Virus record (IMG/VR): IMGVR_UViG_3300022690_001586
Span: 1-48,306 of that record
Source: a virus
Reading direction: 5' to 3' (one strand)
Length of the DNA stretch: 48,306 nucleotides
Shown here in pieces: positions 4,449-25,887 of the stretch (position 1 is its first letter; each line of letters starts with the position of its first letter). A model generated the notes under the pieces. It was not told the origin of the DNA, made no database searches, and saw only the letters and a list, made by a program, of their open reading frames with translations. Position numbers and translations under genes: made by a program.

Positions 4449-5384
4449 ATGGCAGTACCACTTCCAATTACCACTTTAACCGCTATTCCGGGATTTTCTC
4501 AGGCCATCCTATCATGGACAGCTCCGGGGGATGGAGGAAGTCCAATTACAGATTATAAGATAGAATTCTCAGTAGATAATATAAAATTTAAAATATTTGA
4601 GGATGGTATTAATACACTCACAACTGTTACAGTAACAGGACTTGAAAACAACCAAATTCACTTTTTTAGAGTATCAGCAATTAATATCGAAGGTACAGCA
4701 CCAGTATCAAATATTCCAACTACTACACCTGTCCAATCACCAATTCCAGAATATTGTACTGTAGGTGAAGTTTCAGACTGGTTAAGAATTGATTTTAATG
4801 AAAATACTGATCCAAATATTATCATGGTGAATAAGAATATTTTAAGAAACCAAGAACACATAGATAGAAAAACTGGTCATTCATGGCAATCAGAAAAACA
4901 GAAAAGAAATGAGGTCCATGATATTCCATCTAGTCTATGGGATTATGGACAGGGTATTCCAATATTTACACAACACAGAATGTTAAAGGCACCTTTTGAT
5001 GTTACTAAAGGTGACAAGTTTGAAATTTGGGATGGAATTGATTATATTGAACAGGATGTAACTCAGAATGATAATTTTATTCACTTTGATAAGGTTAGTG
5101 GAACATTTTATATTCGGGGATTCTTTTTTACAATACTAACAAAGAAAAGATTTAGAATAACATATAGATATGGTGGAGATCAAGAAAATGAACCAGTACC
5201 ACAAGATATTAACAAGGCGTGTGTACTATTAACATCAATTAATATTTTAGAGACTGATTTCCAAATGTCTCAGATTAAATATGGTGGGGAAGGAACTGTA
5301 AGTAAACGAGAAACCATACAAATGTGGAGAGAAGAGGTAAATGAAATTATAGATGATCATGCGGAGTTTATAACTATTATATAG
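4449..5384 (+). CDS. Head-tail connector/adaptor protein with N-terminal fibronectin III domain
   Basis: 311 residues. Residues about 5-95 are a fibronectin type III domain (TTLTAIPGFSQAILSWTAPGDGGSPITDYKIEFS...FFRVSAINIEGTAPVSN). Residues 100-311 have the look of gp6/gp15-type head completion proteins: an acidic N-terminal helix (YCTVGEVSDWLRIDFNE), a central beta region, then TYRYGG...VPQDINKACVLLTSINILE and a C-terminal helix. That pattern is widespread in siphovirus adaptors. It is followed at once by the neck protein, which matches the usual connector, neck, tail-terminator order. A TATA (ATTTATATTAC) lies just upstream of the ATG. An FnIII module fused to a connector is uncommon and may project from the neck to contact host glycans. 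Confidence 0.7.
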   Translation: MAVPLPITTLTAIPGFSQAILSWTAPGDGGSPITDYKIEFSVDNIKFKIFEDGINTLTTVTVTGLENNQIHFFRVSAINIEGTAPVSNIPTTTPVQSPIPEYCTVGEVSDWLRIDFNENTDPNIIMVNKNILRNQEHIDRKTGHSWQSEKQKRNEVHDIPSSLWDYGQGIPIFTQHRMLKAPFDVTKGDKFEIWDGIDYIEQDVTQNDNFIHFDKVSGTFYIRGFFFTILTKKRFRITYRYGGDQENEPVPQDINKACVLLTSINILETDFQMSQIKYGGEGTVSKRETIQMWREEVNEIIDDHAEFITII

Positions 5385-6637: not shown

Positions 6638-7603
6638 TTGGCTAGAACTGCTTCTAGTGCATATGTAGAATATGGATATGAAACTAGTTTTGGAAATGGT
6701 GGAATAGATGCTCCACTAGTATTTGGAAGAGAGCAAAAGGCAGTAGGTTTAGAAGCTATAAATAATCAAATTCCATTAGGACAATTGAATAGTCCGGAGA
6801 TAGAATGTTTTGTATATGGAAGAAATGAGGGTAAGGTTTCAATGGAATATGTTTTGAGTAATCCATGGATATTTACATCACTATTAGGTCAACCAGTTGA
6901 AACAGGTGCATCAACACCATTTACTAATACATGGGATTCTAGACCATCTACACCACCAGTAGGTCAAATTAGAGATATAGAATCATTGTTCCTTGAAATT
7001 GGTTTTGAGGGAATTACTGGTAATGTTGTAAGAGAAATTAGTGGAGTTGTAAGTCCGTCAATGGCGTTACGAATGTCGATTAATGAACCAATTAGAGTTA
7101 CACAAGAATTAATTTGGGGTCAGGATTCTGTAAATACAACACTTGATACTAGTGTATCTGCTAAAGGAGATTTTACACCATATGTATTTGCAAATGCAAG
7201 TCTGCAACTTCCAAGTGGTACCAGTGTAGCAACAATTCAAGATCTTGATCTTAATTTGAATAGTAATGCTGAACTTTTATATGAACTTGGTAAAGCTAAT
7301 AGTGTTGATGCATATAGAAAAATTTTGGAAATGACAGGAAAAATTAATTTAACTATGAAGGATAAGACAAATATTGATAGAATATTTGCTAGAACAGAAA
7401 TTTTAACTATGAAGGTATTTATTACAAATGGATTAACTGGTAGCAGTAAAAAAGATATCACTATAGACTTTAGAGGGGTAGGACTTTCACTTCATAGTAA
7501 TTCCGGAATAGAACCAGGAGAACTTGTTTTGGAAAATGTAGATTTTCAATGTCGTTCTGTAACTATTACAGCAGTAAGTGATACAAGGAACCAGCCATCT
7601 TAG
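6638..7603 (+). CDS. Major tail (tube) protein
   Basis: 321 residues. The N-terminus ARTASSAYVEYGYETSFGNGGIDAPLVFGREQKA, followed by a beta-rich body with regular polar strands, is typical of tail-tube subunits (KVSMEYVLSNPWIFTSLLGQPVE; then a long beta region ending in VTITAVSD). It lies between the tail terminator and the tail chaperone pair, exactly where the tube gene sits in siphoviruses. The start is the TTG at 6638, placed about 20 bp after a TATA box. The isolated promoter region in front suggests strong separate expression. No tail sheath gene is seen nearby, so the tail is inferred to be non-contractile. Confidence 0.7.
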   Translation: MARTASSAYVEYGYETSFGNGGIDAPLVFGREQKAVGLEAINNQIPLGQLNSPEIECFVYGRNEGKVSMEYVLSNPWIFTSLLGQPVETGASTPFTNTWDSRPSTPPVGQIRDIESLFLEIGFEGITGNVVREISGVVSPSMALRMSINEPIRVTQELIWGQDSVNTTLDTSVSAKGDFTPYVFANASLQLPSGTSVATIQDLDLNLNSNAELLYELGKANSVDAYRKILEMTGKINLTMKDKTNIDRIFARTEILTMKVFITNGLTGSSKKDITIDFRGVGLSLHSNSGIEPGELVLENVDFQCRSVTITAVSDTRNQPS

Positions 7604-7643: not shown

Positions 7644-8012
7644 ATGAGTGTAGAAGAATTCCATAAAATTACAATACCATGGAAAGAATCTGATGGTGTA
7701 ATTAGGGAGAAAGAAGTTCTTTTAAAGAAAACATTGAAATTCGGGGAATTTGGTGCAATCTTTAAAAAAGGTGGATTTGATTTACAAACACAATCAATCA
7801 CTGATATTCAGGCATTCATGGTTACACTGATTCAATTTGCAATTCATGAAGCACCATTTGATCCAAAAATAGTAGATAATATCCTACAATTGGATACGCC
7901 AGTAGCAATGAAGATATTCACGGAGGCTTTAAGCGCACTCCCTTTAGCAGAACTATCGCAGGATTTGGGAATAAAGGTTCCAGATTTCCCCCCAAGACCC
8001 CAGAAGATTTAA
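7644..8012 (+). CDS. Tail assembly chaperone, short form (G-like)
   Basis: 122 residues from the ATG at 7644, which lies about 20 bp after ATTTATATAAT; upstream in-frame ATGs are on the wrong side of the TATA box. The sequence MSVEEFHKITIPWKESDGVIREKEVLLKKTLKFGEFGAIFKKGG... is a small alpha/beta protein. It sits directly between the tube and tape-measure genes, the hallmark position of the lambda G/T chaperones that bind the tape measure. It ends ...KVPDFPPRPQKI after a run of C residues, a likely slip site (see 7988). Other identities are unlikely given the conserved synteny. Confidence 0.7.
   Translation: MSVEEFHKITIPWKESDGVIREKEVLLKKTLKFGEFGAIFKKGGFDLQTQSITDIQAFMVTLIQFAIHEAPFDPKIVDNILQLDTPVAMKIFTEALSALPLAELSQDLGIKVPDFPPRPQKI
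7988..7994 (+). promoter_or_regulatory. Probable -1 frameshift slip site (C CCC CCA)
   Basis: In the zero frame the codons read TTC CCC CCA; slipping back one base re-pairs the tRNAs on CCC CCC. The -1 frame is open from before this site through 8203, and the zero frame stops 16 bases later. This is the position at which tail-chaperone genes of many siphoviruses make the G-T fusion. Confidence 0.6.
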
Positions 8013-8203
8013 GATATTTCATATACGTCTATTGTATGACTGTACTACACATGAGTAGAAAAGAGATAGATGAAGAAAGTTTTGAGTTCCTAATGAACGT
8101 AATCCCTATTAGCATGGATATGTTTAAATACATCATGTCTGGTCTTACTGGAAACAAAAACTCTGATATTGGTACTGGATTCTCAAGGAGTACTGTAAAT
8201 TGA
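7988..8203 (+). CDS. Tail assembly chaperone, C-terminal (T-like) extension made by -1 frameshift
   Basis: The -1 frame continues ...PKTPEDLRYFIYVYCMTVLHMSRKEIDEESFEFLMNVIPISMDMFKYIMSG and ends at 8203. The fusion with 7644-7993 would be about 185 residues. The motif of an aromatic-rich helix, then MS..EID....EFL, is the usual look of the T part of tail chaperones, which recruits the tape measure. An ATG at 8036 gives a 55-codon frame, but it lies inside the conserved helix and has no TATA box, so fusion is preferred over a separate gene. The last four bases overlap the tape-measure start at 8200. Confidence 0.6.
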   Translation, partial: PPKTPEDLRYFIYVYCMTVLHMSRKEIDEESFEFLMNVIPISMDMFKYIMSGLTGNKNSDIGTGFSRSTVN

Positions 8204-9372
8204 GTAGTAGGGAAAGAGTACTAACTTTAAAATTAGATGATAAAAATGTTAGGGATGCAATTAAGAAAATAGAGGAAGCTGGATTTGGTACAAAATCTTC
8301 TGGTGGCGGTGGTACTAAAAAATCTACTAGTGGTGATATTGTAAGTCAAATTTTCGGAAAGAATTCTGTAATGTTTAAAAATTTAGCACAATTGACATTA
8401 ATCGGGGGAGCTATACTAGCATTAGTTAAGCTAGTTCAAAAGATAAGTTCATCAATTATAGATTCATCACCAATTTTACAGGTAATGTTAAAACTGTTCC
8501 AAACTGCAATAACTTTCATATTAAGACCAATTGGAGATTTTATTGGTTTATTCCTAAGACCATTCTTAATAATGTTTTTGAGGGCATCACTTGATTTCTA
8601 TAAGACAGTTGGTCCAATATTTAGAAATATTGGCGGTGAACTTGGAAAAAAGTTTGCTGCAAACTTTGAAAGTCCGGAAAAATTACTTGCTAATCTTATA
8701 TTAGGAATGGGTGGTGGTAACATTGTACAGCAAGGATTAGCAACTCTATTTGAACAGATTAAAATACCAGAGTTTAAACTACCAGTATTTGATAATTTGT
8801 CATTTCAGTTTGAGGTACTATCAAGAAAACTATCAAACTTTGCATCTACCTTACCAGATAGAATAAGAGCAATTGCTCCTATAATAGTAGGAGCTTTCGG
8901 GGAGTTAGGTAAATTTGTAGGAGATATTGCACTAAGAGCAACAGAAACAGTTTCGTTGATATTGCCAATGATTACTGGAATAACAGATTTATTTACAGGT
9001 ATTTTTAATTCTATCAATGAATCATTTAATGCTAATGTGGTTCCAAAACTTGCGGAGTTTTCAGAATTTATTACAGCACTAATAGATCAAGCTAGAGCAC
9101 CAGTTCAAGCTGCAATAGAAGCAATAGCTGGATTCTTTAGAGATCTTGCAGCATTCTTTACTAATCTTATTGAAAGTATAAATGGACTTATATTTAGTAT
9201 TCCAGGTGCAATAGCTGGACTTGTAGGCGGTGGAAATGGTGGTGGAAATGTTACTAATAACTTCTTTGAAGGTGCAATACAAGCAGGACAGGAGGTAGTG
9301 GACCAGATATTTAATTTCGGGAACCAGGTAGGAAAAAGTATAAATGATACAATATCGGGAAGTAGTAGATAA
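8200..9372 (+). CDS. Tape measure protein (short)
   Basis: 390 residues. It begins TTGAGTAGTAGG..., overlapping the stop of the frameshift product (TTGA). An N-terminal helix and a Gly/Ser linker (SSGGGGTKKSTSG, about residues 34-46) lead into long hydrophobic helices (LIGGAILALVKLVQKISSSI; TAITFILRPIGDFIGLFLRPFLIMFLRASL) and a later segment (GLIFSIPGAIAGLVGG). These patterns occur in tape measures that enter the membrane during DNA delivery. At about 1.5 angstrom per residue the tail would be near 58 nm, short for a siphovirus. No muramidase or peptidase domain is visible, which fits a host without murein. Confidence 0.7.
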   Translation: MSSRERVLTLKLDDKNVRDAIKKIEEAGFGTKSSGGGGTKKSTSGDIVSQIFGKNSVMFKNLAQLTLIGGAILALVKLVQKISSSIIDSSPILQVMLKLFQTAITFILRPIGDFIGLFLRPFLIMFLRASLDFYKTVGPIFRNIGGELGKKFAANFESPEKLLANLILGMGGGNIVQQGLATLFEQIKIPEFKLPVFDNLSFQFEVLSRKLSNFASTLPDRIRAIAPIIVGAFGELGKFVGDIALRATETVSLILPMITGITDLFTGIFNSINESFNANVVPKLAEFSEFITALIDQARAPVQAAIEAIAGFFRDLAAFFTNLIESINGLIFSIPGAIAGLVGGGNGGGNVTNNFFEGAIQAGQEVVDQIFNFGNQVGKSINDTISGSSR

Positions 9373-10121: not shown

Positions 10122-11866
10122 TGAGCAGATCATCTTGTGTAATAAAAGAAGTTCCTGGTGGTACATTACATGAGTATACGCCAATTGGTGTAAAATTCAA
10201 GGCTGAAGGTTCAAAGAAACCAGATGTATTAGTTTCACATTTTACCATAAATAATAAGGTTAGGGAAAATTATGAAATTGCATACATTCAGGATATTATA
10301 AGTGTTGAATATTTGGCATGTATCCATAATTTTCAATTATCAGCACTTGATGATAGAGGATATGATTTGGATGGAGAATCAGGAGCAAGTGTAAATATTG
10401 CAGAAAGTAGATTTTTTGATGTTGATGTTGGAAGATTTAAGGGAAACTATGCATTAGATTTTAATGCAACTAATCAAGCAATAATAATACCAAACGCTAA
10501 AGCAGTAACTAGGGTTGATCTTTCTGGACAGTTTGATATTTATGTGTTCTTTTTCCCTGCAAATAATCAATTCATTGATGGAAATAATGAACCTATAGTA
10601 TGGAGTTTTAATGATGGAAGTAGTGGACTTGAAATAGGAATAACCAATGCAGCAAATGTTAATGAATGGAAGGGGTTTTTTAGAGCTGGTAATGGAATTA
10701 CAAATGTAGTTCAAAATACTAATATAATAATACCTTTAGGAGATATAAGTAAGCCTACATTAATTAGAGTATTTCGTGGTGGTGATAATATAGTAAGAAT
10801 GGAAGTTAATGGTGAATTAGATGGTGATCCGTTACTTAAAACTGGTTCAATGAATCCAAGTGGAGTAGATCTTATATTTGGAAATGGAAATGGTAATAAT
10901 GATGATTTTAGAGGATTAATACATCAAGAAAGAACCTATATAGGAACCGTATTAACACAGGTACAAGCAGATGCAATAAGACAATCCAGACCAGCATTAT
11001 TTACTATGAAATTCGCGGGAAATATATGGAATGTTGATGATAAAGAATCATATAAGATAGTAAAAGCAGATAGTTTTTCTAAATCATTTGTAAACACTAA
11101 ATTTCCATTAACCACTTCACCTACTACATATAATCTTCCAACTATACCATTTAAAACCATAATGCAGGGATTAGTTGATGAAGCTACAAGTCCAAATCAA
11201 TTTTTAGTAAAGGCTAAAGATACATTTGCAACAACTGTAACCTTGTTTGGTAATCTTATTCAGGTTGGTTCATTCTTGGATGTATCAAGTATTTTGTTTT
11301 TATTTAGTGGTACAACATTCTACATAACTCCAAGAAAATTATTAATAGTGGAAACAAGTAGCGGGCATCTTACTGATTTCATATTTGATCAAGATAAGGA
11401 TACTACTAATACACCATACGATATAACAGAAAGTGTAGATAATAATACCAATTTAGTTACATCCGTAATCTTAACATCACCAAACCCTTTAATTAATACT
11501 GAAGATTCACTTTCAAGTCCAGCTGGTGCTACATTTACATTAAGAAAACAGGTTGCACAAATAGATCAACAAACTGATTTAGGAAACTTGGCAATTAAAA
11601 TAAGAGAATCATTTCAATCCATTAATACTAGGTTTGTAATAAAAATAAATACATTGGTAAATTGGGTAAGATTCAATCATATTGTGACAATTAACAATTC
11701 AAGAAAGAATATAAATAATGCTCCATTCATAATATCACAAATAGAGCATGAATATCCAAGATCAGATACTAAAATAGCAGTAAATGAAAATGAGATTGAC
11801 TTTTTTGATATTACTAATAATAATTCACTAGTACAGCAAACTTTATTGGATGGTACAGATACATGA
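10121..11866 (+). CDS. Tail hub/baseplate protein with inserted LamG-like domain
   Basis: 581 residues, start overlapping the previous stop (TAATGA). The N-terminal 80 residues and the part after about residue 290 read like gp27/gpD-type hub proteins: SYKIVKADSFSKSF, PFKTIMQGLVDEATSPNQFLV, and a late segment NWVRFNHIVTINNSRKNINNAPFIISQIEHEY. Between them, residues about 85-290 form a LamG/concanavalin-like sandwich (GNYALDFNATNQAIIIP...KPTLIRVFRGGDNIVRMEVNGELDG...DDFRGLIHQERTYIGTVLTQVQ). The insertion would place a carbohydrate- or protein-binding lobe on the hub. It is the last tail gene before the nuclease at 11863, whose start it overlaps (ATGA). Confidence 0.65.
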   Translation: MSRSSCVIKEVPGGTLHEYTPIGVKFKAEGSKKPDVLVSHFTINNKVRENYEIAYIQDIISVEYLACIHNFQLSALDDRGYDLDGESGASVNIAESRFFDVDVGRFKGNYALDFNATNQAIIIPNAKAVTRVDLSGQFDIYVFFFPANNQFIDGNNEPIVWSFNDGSSGLEIGITNAANVNEWKGFFRAGNGITNVVQNTNIIIPLGDISKPTLIRVFRGGDNIVRMEVNGELDGDPLLKTGSMNPSGVDLIFGNGNGNNDDFRGLIHQERTYIGTVLTQVQADAIRQSRPALFTMKFAGNIWNVDDKESYKIVKADSFSKSFVNTKFPLTTSPTTYNLPTIPFKTIMQGLVDEATSPNQFLVKAKDTFATTVTLFGNLIQVGSFLDVSSILFLFSGTTFYITPRKLLIVETSSGHLTDFIFDQDKDTTNTPYDITESVDNNTNLVTSVILTSPNPLINTEDSLSSPAGATFTLRKQVAQIDQQTDLGNLAIKIRESFQSINTRFVIKINTLVNWVRFNHIVTINNSRKNINNAPFIISQIEHEYPRSDTKIAVNENEIDFFDITNNNSLVQQTLLDGTDT

Positions 11867-18405: not shown

Positions 18406-18438
18406 ACATTTATATTGAAGTGGTTTTATTATTACTCT

Positions 18439-20010
18439 ATGAGTAATGTACAGCAACCAGTTTTAAGACAGGGTAGTACACAAGAACAAGGTCAAGTAGC
18501 ACTATATAATAATATTGCAGCAGCAACTATGATTACTAAATTAATGAAAACAAGTCTTGGTCCAAGAGGATTAGATAAAATGATGATAGATTCTTTAGGA
18601 GAAGTAACAGTAACTAATGATGGTGCTACTATACTAAAAGAGATTGACGTTCAACACCCCGCAGCAAAAATGTTAGTGGAGATTTCACAAAGTACAGATA
18701 AAGAAGTAGGTGATGGAACTACAAGTACCGTAATATTTGCGGGAGATTTATTAGAAAAGGCAAAATCATTACTAGAAAATGATGTACATCCTACTACTAT
18801 AGTAGATGGATACAAAATGGCTTCAAAGGAAGCAGTAAATATATTAAATGAAATATCAATAAAGATTAAGGATAATGATTATGATTCATTACTCAGAATA
18901 GCAAAAACTACAATGCAATCCAAATTAACAAGGTCAGATTCAGACTTTTTATCAAAAATGGTAGTAGATACTATTTTACAAATTAAAGATGGTAATACAG
19001 TAGATATGACTAGAATTAAAACAATGACTGATCCAGGTGAATCAATGGATAAATCAAGATTAATTAAAGGTCTAATTATTGATAAAGAAACCGTAGATGG
19101 AGCAGTATTTAAAATTACTGATGCTAAAGTAGCATTAATTAGTTCTGCAATGGAAATAGCAAGAACAGAGTCAACTACTGAAATTCACGTTACTAATCCA
19201 GATCAAATGAAGGCATTTACTGATAAGGAAGATGCTATGTTAAAAGAAATGGTACAGCCACTAATTGATGCGGGTATCAATATAGTATTCTGTAAAAAGG
19301 GTATAGATGATGTAGCACAATATTTCTTGAATAAGGCAGGAATTAAATCCGTAAAACGTGTAAGAGAATCAGATATGAGATCTCTATCCAGAGTTGCGGG
19401 AATTGATATTTTAGAAAAGACTTCAGATATTGAGGGAAGTAAAATAGGAACTCTATTAAGTGTAGAAGAAAAACAAATAGGTGATAGTAATTGGGTATTT
19501 GTTGATGGTGGTGAACAGTCAAAAGTAGCTACATTATTCCTTCGTGGTGGAACCAAACGTGTAGTAGATGAGGTTGAAAGATCTATAGTTGATGCTACAA
19601 TGGCAGTTAGAGATGTTATTATAGAACCTTCATATGTATATGGATGCGGATATTCTGAAGCATTGGTATCTAGAAAATTAAGAGAATGGTCCAAAAGTGT
19701 AACTGGATTAGAACAATTAGCAGTAGATAGTTTTGCTGATGCACTAGAAAACTATGTATTAATACTTGCAAAAAGTATAGGATTAAACGTACTTCGTGCA
19801 AAATCAACTTTACGCCAAGGAAAGAATTTTGGAATTAATGTTATTAAAGGAGAAATCGGGGATGTTACTAAATTAAATATTCTAGATCCAACACTAGTAA
19901 AGAAACAAATTATAAATAGTGCTACTGAAGCAGCATGTATGATATTGAGGATTGATGAGAATATAGCTATATCAGCACAAAATCAACCACAAGCTGCACC
20001 AATGGTATAA
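18439..20010 (+). CDS. Group II chaperonin (thermosome) subunit
   Basis: 523 residues from the ATG at 18439, about 25 bp after TTTATATTG; an in-frame ATG eight codons earlier is too close to that box. Equatorial ATPase motifs: GPRGLDKMMID (41-51), TNDGATI (59-65), GDGTTS (91-96, catalytic Asp). Apical and intermediate regions are complete, and FLRGGTKRVVDEVERSIVDA (about 367-386) is canonical. The usual GGGA nucleotide-contact segment reads YGCGYSEA (about 401-408), a departure. The C-terminus MILRIDENIAISAQNQPQAAPMV lacks the GGM repeats of many host subunits. A virus-borne folding chamber probably assists capsid or tail proteins, alone or mixed with host subunits. Confidence 0.93.
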   Translation: MSNVQQPVLRQGSTQEQGQVALYNNIAAATMITKLMKTSLGPRGLDKMMIDSLGEVTVTNDGATILKEIDVQHPAAKMLVEISQSTDKEVGDGTTSTVIFAGDLLEKAKSLLENDVHPTTIVDGYKMASKEAVNILNEISIKIKDNDYDSLLRIAKTTMQSKLTRSDSDFLSKMVVDTILQIKDGNTVDMTRIKTMTDPGESMDKSRLIKGLIIDKETVDGAVFKITDAKVALISSAMEIARTESTTEIHVTNPDQMKAFTDKEDAMLKEMVQPLIDAGINIVFCKKGIDDVAQYFLNKAGIKSVKRVRESDMRSLSRVAGIDILEKTSDIEGSKIGTLLSVEEKQIGDSNWVFVDGGEQSKVATLFLRGGTKRVVDEVERSIVDATMAVRDVIIEPSYVYGCGYSEALVSRKLREWSKSVTGLEQLAVDSFADALENYVLILAKSIGLNVLRAKSTLRQGKNFGINVIKGEIGDVTKLNILDPTLVKKQIINSATEAACMILRIDENIAISAQNQPQAAPMV

Positions 20011-23204: not shown

Positions 23205-23480
23205 ATGGTTTTTAATTTATCTATAAGTGATAAATCAAAAGATTCTTTTAATAGAATTACAGCAATTGCGGAAATAATGGGTGTATCTACCTCATCACTA
23301 ATAATGAAGGGTGTAAAGATGTATATAAACAAGGTTGATAACATCACACCATTAATTAATGATGAATCATTATGGGATGGAATAATATCAAAGATGAAGA
23401 AAGAAGATTTGAAAAATATGAATACACTTTTATTTAGGTTAAACCAAAAAATAATGGAATTTTATGATACCAATAAATAA
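23205..23480 (+). CDS. Small regulator-like protein before the PrimPol-MCM gene
   Basis: 91 residues. A beta strand then two helices at the N-terminus (VFNLSISDKSKDSFNRITAIAEIMGVSTSSLIMKGVKMYINKV) resemble an RHH domain. A helical extension follows. It overlaps the next gene by 17 bases, so translation is linked. Could control copy number of the replication protein. Confidence 0.5.
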   Translation: MVFNLSISDKSKDSFNRITAIAEIMGVSTSSLIMKGVKMYINKVDNITPLINDESLWDGIISKMKKEDLKNMNTLLFRLNQKIMEFYDTNK

Positions 23481-25887
23481 GTTACGAGAAATGGGGTTCA
23501 ATTTGATGCCCTTACAAAAGGAATCAAAAGCACCTGTATTATCCAGTTGGTTAAAACTAGTTGATGAACAATATGAGGGTAAATTCCCTGAAGGATGCAA
23601 TGTTGCTATAATATGTGGAACCACTTCAAACAATTTGTTTGTAGTTGATTTGGATGATTCTACATTATATGATGATTTTGAATTTTACCATGGTGTTACA
23701 TTTACTGTAAAGACTAGTAAGGGATACCATTTTTATTTTAGAAATAATGGACTTCCAATTCCCGGAAGAAAGTTAGTAGATAAAAGGGGAAGACCAGTTG
23801 ATATAAAGTCTCATGGTGGTTATGTAATAGCACCTGGTAGTATTCATCCAGATACTAAAAAACCATATGAAATAATATGTGATAAACCAGTACTCACTAT
23901 AGATCCAAATGAAATTAAAGACTTTCTTGAAAAGTTAGGATTTGATATAAAGAAAAGAAGTTTTGATGAAATAGAACAAGGTGTAAGTGAGGGTGGAAGA
24001 AATGACAGTACATTTAGTTATGGTTGTTACCTGGTAAGAGAAGGAGTTTATGGAGAAGCATTAAAAATTGAACTGGAAAAACTAAACAACAAGCACAAGC
24101 CACCATTACCTCAAAAGGATATAGATATACTATACACACAGATAACAAAGGCTGAAAACAGAAAGATAAAAATACATATGAAAAATGTGGAAAGAATACA
24201 GGACCGATTAAAGGTTACACCTGTAAAGATGCAGGACATAAGACCAGAACTTCATGAAGGGTTTACAATACAGTTTGATTGCATGATAACTGCAGTAGGT
24301 GAAAGAATGACATATACCAAGAATGCGGAATTTGAATGCTACGAATGTGGGGATTCAGTTACAAAGAAATGTAATGAATTATATCAGATGGTAGTACCAA
24401 CCTGTAAAACACATGGAACTAAACGAATAATTAATCATTCAACAAAAGAGACTGGATATATTCAACAACTACGAATACAGGAATTTCTAGAAGATTCAAA
24501 ACATTCTTCACCAATAGAGTTTGATGCTGAAATATTGGATGATGGAGTAGGAGAGGCATTTATGGGGGATAGAAAGACAGTTACAGCAAAATTTAGAAGC
24601 ATACCAAATAAGAGTGGTTATAACACCATAGTATTTGAAATTATTAATATGGATAATATGGAACAAGGTGAGGGATGTATGCCTGATAAAAAGGAAATAG
24701 AAAAATGGGAAAATAATAAAAACTTGTTTGAGGATGTTACAAACTCTATAGTTCCTGAACTATTATTTAGTCCGTTAATTCTTAAAAGTTTAATACTATA
24801 CGCTGCAGGAGGTACAACGTTAAATGGTAAAAGAGACAGTATAAATGCTGCACTCATTGGGGATGCTCAATTAGCAAAATCAGAGGTTTTAGAAAGATTT
24901 CATATACTACTTCCAGGTTCAGGTTTTACAGTTGGTATGAGAACAAGCGGAGCAGGGCTTACTATAGGTATGGTAAAATTACATAACGGTATGTCAGTAC
25001 CAAAAGCCGGATGGTTCCCACTACATACAAATCATCACTGTATATTTGATGAGGGTGACAAGTTAAAACCAGAAGATCAGGATGCTTGTCTTGAAGTTAT
25101 GGAACAACAGACTGTAACACTTGTAAAAAATGGTGTTCCTGGTATCAGACTTCCAGCAAAATGTCCATTACTTTTTGCGGGAAATCCAAAAGGTTCAAAG
25201 TTTAACAAGAAACTATCTATTATGGATAACTTTAATATGAGTGTACCATTTGTATCTAGGTTTGATTTTGTATTCTGTATAGTTGATAGTAATGATCCAG
25301 TAATAGATCAAGCTATTAGGGAATGTATAAAGTCATTTCAGGATAGAAAGGCTGAATATATGACTATAGAAGAACTTCAAAGATATTTTACATATATCGG
25401 CACAATTAATTCTAAAGTACCAAAATCACTTTATTATAAAATAGATGAACTGCATATAAAAATGAGAAAATTAAACAAGTTGGACAGCCTGCCTATAGGT
25501 GTTAGACAATACCATGGACTCTTTAGACTCATTACAGCCTGTGCTTCAGCACATCTAAGAGAAGAAGCAACAATACATGATGTTATGATAGTTGAGAAAA
25601 TAATCAATGCATCATTTAAATCAATGAGAATGGATCTGGATTCGGGGGAACAAACTGGATCAATTGTACCAAAGAAAGAAACAAAAGAAACAGTTTTCCT
25701 AGAAGTATGGACCGCATGTAAAGATATTCAGGGAGAAGTAGGAAGGGAAGAATTTATAGAAAACTTGGGAAAACGTACTCCATATAACCCATTAACAGCA
25801 CCAGTAGAGTTTAACAAATGGTGGAAGGATTTCGGAAGAATAGAACTTGTAAATGAAACTGAAAGATTCAAAATGGTTAATATTTAG
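23464..25887 (+). CDS. Fused primase-polymerase and MCM helicase
   Basis: 807 residues. N-terminal prim-pol (AEP) domain, about 1-160: catalytic acids in VVDLDDS (61-66), KTSKGYHFYF (83-92), DIKSHGGYVIAPGS (113-126). A helical PriCT-like segment follows (EGGRNDSTFSYGCYLV, 177-191). An MCM N-domain-like OB region carries a zinc finger (CYECGDSVTKKC...CKTHG, about 292-317). MCM AAA+ motor: Walker A LIGDAQLAKSE (465-475), Walker B CIFDEGDKL (526-534), sensor 1 LLFAGNPKG (569-577), arginine finger VSRFD (597-601). The C-terminus is winged-helix-like. It joins primer synthesis and unwinding in one chain and is the probable replication initiator. PrimPol-MCM fusions are known from mobile elements such as a Bacillus cereus prophage. 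Confidence 0.9.
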   Translation: MIPINKLREMGFNLMPLQKESKAPVLSSWLKLVDEQYEGKFPEGCNVAIICGTTSNNLFVVDLDDSTLYDDFEFYHGVTFTVKTSKGYHFYFRNNGLPIPGRKLVDKRGRPVDIKSHGGYVIAPGSIHPDTKKPYEIICDKPVLTIDPNEIKDFLEKLGFDIKKRSFDEIEQGVSEGGRNDSTFSYGCYLVREGVYGEALKIELEKLNNKHKPPLPQKDIDILYTQITKAENRKIKIHMKNVERIQDRLKVTPVKMQDIRPELHEGFTIQFDCMITAVGERMTYTKNAEFECYECGDSVTKKCNELYQMVVPTCKTHGTKRIINHSTKETGYIQQLRIQEFLEDSKHSSPIEFDAEILDDGVGEAFMGDRKTVTAKFRSIPNKSGYNTIVFEIINMDNMEQGEGCMPDKKEIEKWENNKNLFEDVTNSIVPELLFSPLILKSLILYAAGGTTLNGKRDSINAALIGDAQLAKSEVLERFHILLPGSGFTVGMRTSGAGLTIGMVKLHNGMSVPKAGWFPLHTNHHCIFDEGDKLKPEDQDACLEVMEQQTVTLVKNGVPGIRLPAKCPLLFAGNPKGSKFNKKLSIMDNFNMSVPFVSRFDFVFCIVDSNDPVIDQAIRECIKSFQDRKAEYMTIEELQRYFTYIGTINSKVPKSLYYKIDELHIKMRKLNKLDSLPIGVRQYHGLFRLITACASAHLREEATIHDVMIVEKIINASFKSMRMDLDSGEQTGSIVPKKETKETVFLEVWTACKDIQGEVGREEFIENLGKRTPYNPLTAPVEFNKWWKDFGRIELVNETERFKMVNI

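Follow-up and report, generated by a model that had tools for sequence, protein, structure and literature searches.

A conserved C CCU UUA heptamer as the predicted −1 slip site of a probable lambda G/GT-type tail-assembly chaperone in an archaeal-type tailed virus

Phage lambda makes a short tail-assembly chaperone, G, and a rarer G-T fusion by −1 frameshifting from a locus between its tail tube and tape-measure genes, and the slip site is G GGA AAG. The same G/GT frameshift is a conserved feature of long-tailed phages, and the lambda chaperones have been reviewed (PMC5009743). Among viruses of archaea, HVTV-1, HCTV-1, HCTV-2 and HCTV-5 appear to use a −1 shift (PMC5009743), Hardycor1 has the slip site G GGA AAT (PMC7911831), and +1 shifts are assumed for HSTV-2 and the HF1 group (PMC5009743, PMC7230728). 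For archaeal programmed −1 frameshifting in general, a 2021 review lists a single cellular example demonstrated by experiment, Saccharolobus fucA1, plus a few predictions from haloviruses (PMC8211752). G/GT-type frameshifts have already been predicted in haloviruses, at slip sites different from the one described here. We analyzed the 48,306 nucleotides of the IMG/VR virus record IMGVR_UViG_3300022690_001586 (hereafter the window), in which two overlapping open reading frames (ORFs) sit between the tail tube and tape-measure genes. The locus very probably encodes a lambda G/GT-type tail-assembly chaperone with a predicted −1 frameshift at C CCU UUA (7940–7946).

The chaperone locus and its flanking tube and tape-measure genes lie on the plus strand. 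Frame 0 starts with ATG at 7644, stops with TAA at 8010–8012 and encodes a G-like protein of 122 amino acids (7644–8012) that is conserved in relatives. In the −1 frame, no stop codon interrupts the stretch from 7880 to a TGA at 8201–8203, and the T extension within this stretch spans 7940–8203. An original prediction, made from the window alone, had described this anatomy with the frame 0 stop at 8012 and the −1 frame open to 8203, and its coordinates hold. The locus is like lambda G/GT in its position between tube and tape measure and in combining a short G with a rarer G-T fusion, here predicted. It is unlike lambda in its slip site and in belonging to an archaeal-type virus, and no sequence similarity between the two was found.

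Peptide-pattern searches with the fusion, tube, tape-measure and terminase proteins returned one close relative or no match. This closest relative, IMG/VR 3300023223_000447 (a single contig labeled L002, L006 and L010 in our set), has an identical layout, and its fusion protein is 52% identical to that of the window. We reached the wider family through the neighboring gene at 4449–5384, aligned with homologues from the halovirus HCTV-16 and the Methanomassiliicoccales virus vir335 (BK063680.1). The search yielded 30 loci, most with a syntenic tail module, some of which stop short of the G/T region and are uninformative there. The order tube, G/T, tape measure, with T in the −1 frame, is common to 21 related viral loci. 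These are partly redundant and represent about five deep lineages: the window with L010, the L011 to L031 group, the L018 group, the L013 and L023 groups, and vir335 with L033–L036. Fusion-protein identities fall as low as 10–25%, and between lineages they are about 10–33% (L033–L036 lie outside that alignment).

Four heptamers of the form X XXY YYZ occur in frame in the overlap of the window, namely CCCTTTA at 7940, TTTGGGA at 7964, TTTCCCC at 7985 and CCCCCCA at 7988. The window alone is insufficient to choose among them; the relatives decide. A heptamer of the form C CCT TTA, C CCT TTT or C CCT TTG occurs in the G/T overlap of the window and of all 21 relatives, always in frame 0. Twenty of the 21 relatives, all but L010, have no other in-frame X XXY YYZ in their overlap. 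Given the amino acids and codon usage, the chance of the motif is about 0.003 to 0.1 per representative; we claim no combined p-value because the representatives are interdependent and the overlap is further constrained by its dual coding. C CCT TTA at 7940–7946 is the best-supported slip site. Transcriptional slippage at CCCTTT would be an alternative explanation, and the fact that this is not a long homopolymer run speaks against it.

The original prediction had instead put the slip at C CCC CCA (7988–7994), which would be a site private to the window virus with the junction VPDFPPK. This heptamer does exist in frame, inside the overlap and near the frame 0 stop, and a run of six C is rare in a genome with a GC content of 31%. 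However, it is missing from all 21 relatives, the closest included, and no relative has a run of at least five C in its overlap; the close relative carries TTCCCTCCT in place of the run and keeps C CCT TTA. A conserved canonical heptamer is present 48 nucleotides upstream in the same gene, at 7940, and the −1 frame resembles that of the relatives from there onward. We consider slippage at 7988 very unlikely, and this sequence comparison calls for relocating the slip site from the C run to 7940. Of the heptamer and the −1 frame originally proposed, only the frame proved to be conserved, and three further heptamers in the overlap, including the conserved site, had been overlooked.

The −1 frame itself shows the constraint of a coding sequence. 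In the alignment of 14 T frames, similarity in the −1 frame sets in at the heptamer; P1 and F2 never vary, and Y29, C32 and D44 hardly do. Over the 62 codons of the T-only stretch, the window and L010 differ at 16, 14 and 37 sites at −1-frame positions 1, 2 and 3, respectively; other sequence pairs lean towards the third position in the same way, with fewer differences. The earlier impression of a conserved-looking −1 tail is borne out by this excess and by 56% identity to the closest relative. That T is a separate gene with a start of its own, translated without a frameshift, is even less probable than slippage at 7988. The window does offer ATG 8036, which opens an ORF of 55 amino acids in the −1 frame, but most relatives lack a counterpart and have their first in-frame starts within T. 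No start codon of T is conserved among the relatives, and conserved −1-frame sequence reaches about 90 nucleotides upstream of 8036, up to the heptamer. Least probable of all is that the split reflects gene decay or a mistake in sequencing or assembly, for which the C6 homopolymer would be an error-prone place; this can be dismissed, since 21 other loci, among them GC-rich loci and a GenBank record, are divided identically and with the same frame relation. Sequencing error, an independent T start and C6 as the programmed site were all rejected on comparative data.

We built AlphaFold models from 14-sequence alignments, folding G and T separately. The G model (mean predicted local distance difference test score, pLDDT, 79) consists of a beta hairpin followed by helices, and the T model (mean pLDDT 70) is helical. 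In a Foldseek search against BFVD, the top matches of G were unnamed, and the named ones (E = 0.008 to 0.04) included 'Pre-tape measure frameshift protein G' of Xylella phage Sano as well as tail assembly chaperones of Bacillus, Lactobacillus and Halobacterium viruses. The fold search against the PDB gave nothing significant, and the fold matches of T were weak. The resemblance of the predicted G fold to viral tail-assembly chaperones is supportive, not conclusive.

Gene order, reading frames, the deeply conserved heptamer, the coding constraint on T, the lack of a conserved T start and the chaperone-like G fold agree with the original proposal of a programmed −1 frameshift yielding a G/GT-type tail chaperone, which the comparison of related sequences supports well. 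In the predicted mechanism, most ribosomes would read 7644–8012 and produce the 122-amino-acid G protein. We infer that slippage in vivo has an efficiency at which a minority of ribosomes would move one base back on C CCU UUA, probably by tandem slippage, with the Pro (CCU) and Leu (UUA) tRNAs re-pairing with CCC and UUU. Reading of the −1 frame to 8203 would then give a G-T fusion of 186 amino acids, with ...IFTEALSALPL joined to SRTIAGFGNK... at the junction. If slippage occurs at 7940, we would expect the peptides IFTEALSALPLSR or IFTEALSALPFSR, and VPDFPPK if it occurs at 7988. By analogy with lambda, tail assembly would rely on G to bind the tape-measure protein and on the T portion of the fusion to recruit tube subunits.

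A possible internal Shine-Dalgarno (SD)-like stimulator, GGAGG, lies at 7922–7926, 13 nucleotides upstream of the slip site. Its duplex with the anti-SD sequence (−9.5 kcal/mol) is in about the best 2% of the local background. L010 pairs about as strongly, the L011 group less so, and vir335 has such pairing too; in the lineages that have such an element it lies about 7–15 nucleotides upstream of the slip site. We hypothesize that it stimulates slippage. Several observations weigh against a G/GT-type frameshift at 7940. The SD-like element is lacking in two lineages, the L018 and L013 groups, and a search 3' of the heptamer revealed no RNA structure consistent among lineages; z is about −3 in L011 and L014 only, so a conserved 3' stem-loop is not general. 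Dual coding of the overlap alone could slow change at the heptamer. Finally, by sequence neither G nor T has a convincing Pfam or PHROG family or falls into a known chaperone family.

The halovirus chaperones are alike in coming from archaeal tailed viruses with a predicted −1 frameshift, and HCTV-16 in addition has a homologous tube and a homologue of the neighbor at 4449–5384. Its gp126, adjoining the tube related to that of the window, is annotated as a chaperone with a putative −1 frameshift. Unlike in the window, extra genes separate this chaperone from the tape measure, and a profile comparison of G and T with the HCTV-16 chaperones gave no match, so that they could not be aligned in this way. 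In L032, L038 and L039, which are halovirus relatives, G GGA AAC takes the place of C CCT TTN. vir335 shares the gene order, an equivalent C CCT TTG and the PF start of the −1 frame; it differs from the window in being GC-rich, in a fusion identity of only 10–17% and in being annotated with two separate hypothetical ORFs. These two short ORFs (10260–10885, L008) precede the tape-measure region, with C CCT TTG at 10613–10619, and from their sequence they look like an unannotated −1 frameshift chaperone.

Outside tailed viruses, CCCUUUA was proposed as the −1 site of giardiavirus, an unrelated eukaryotic double-stranded RNA virus with the identical heptamer, and later work disputes its use there (PMC8230311). 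We found no description of CCCTTT in tail chaperones in the open-access literature. It is conceivable, although we hold it doubtful, that the C CCU UUN site is fixed throughout a widespread uncultured clade of archaeal tailed viruses, that it works there without a consistent downstream RNA structure and that an SD-like element helps in some lineages. If true, archaeal ribosomes would perform SD-assisted −1 frameshifting, and CCCUUUA would have a natural use.

Of the flanking genes, the tail tube gene (6638–7603) matches Pfam Phage_tube_2 (PF18906; E = 2.8e-12), and its product is 26% identical to the HCTV-16 tail tube. The tape-measure gene (8200–9372) matches PHROG tape-measure families (E = 1e-8) and seems to begin with TTG; the protein start MSS lines up with the relatives in the alignment. 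The apparent TTG start shares four nucleotides (TTGA, 8200–8203) with the T stop codon, and translation of T and the tape-measure gene may be coupled by this overlap. The product of 4449–5384 has an fn3 domain followed by a phrog_17057-like domain; wider relatives match it only from residue ~100, so that fn3 may be a feature of the window and its close relative alone. Directly before its tube gene, the close relative has an additional ORF of 238 amino acids made of short degenerate repeats (L006, 4474–5190), and nothing resembling it was seen at the equivalent place in the window.

The window also encodes a group II chaperonin (18415–20010; TCP-1/cpn60, E = 2.8e-152) and a single protein of 807 amino acids that unites a Prim-Pol domain with an MCM helicase domain (23464–25887). 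Judged by these genes, the virus is archaeal, as originally proposed. The thaumarchaeal host named with it is not established, the gene content being of archaeal type only. A search for AmoC as a thaumarchaeal-virus marker was silent, as it was in the control genomes, and two scans of genome contigs gave no host genome match.

What is new is the conserved C CCU UUN site and the spread of the predicted G/GT-type frameshift to further archaeal viruses. A slip site kept over about five deep lineages, AT-rich and GC-rich alike, would extend the lambda G/GT mechanism to archaeal virus groups other than the haloviruses. It also provides a correctly placed site for testing and makes it possible to annotate T extensions that, as in vir335, currently stand as ORFs of their own.
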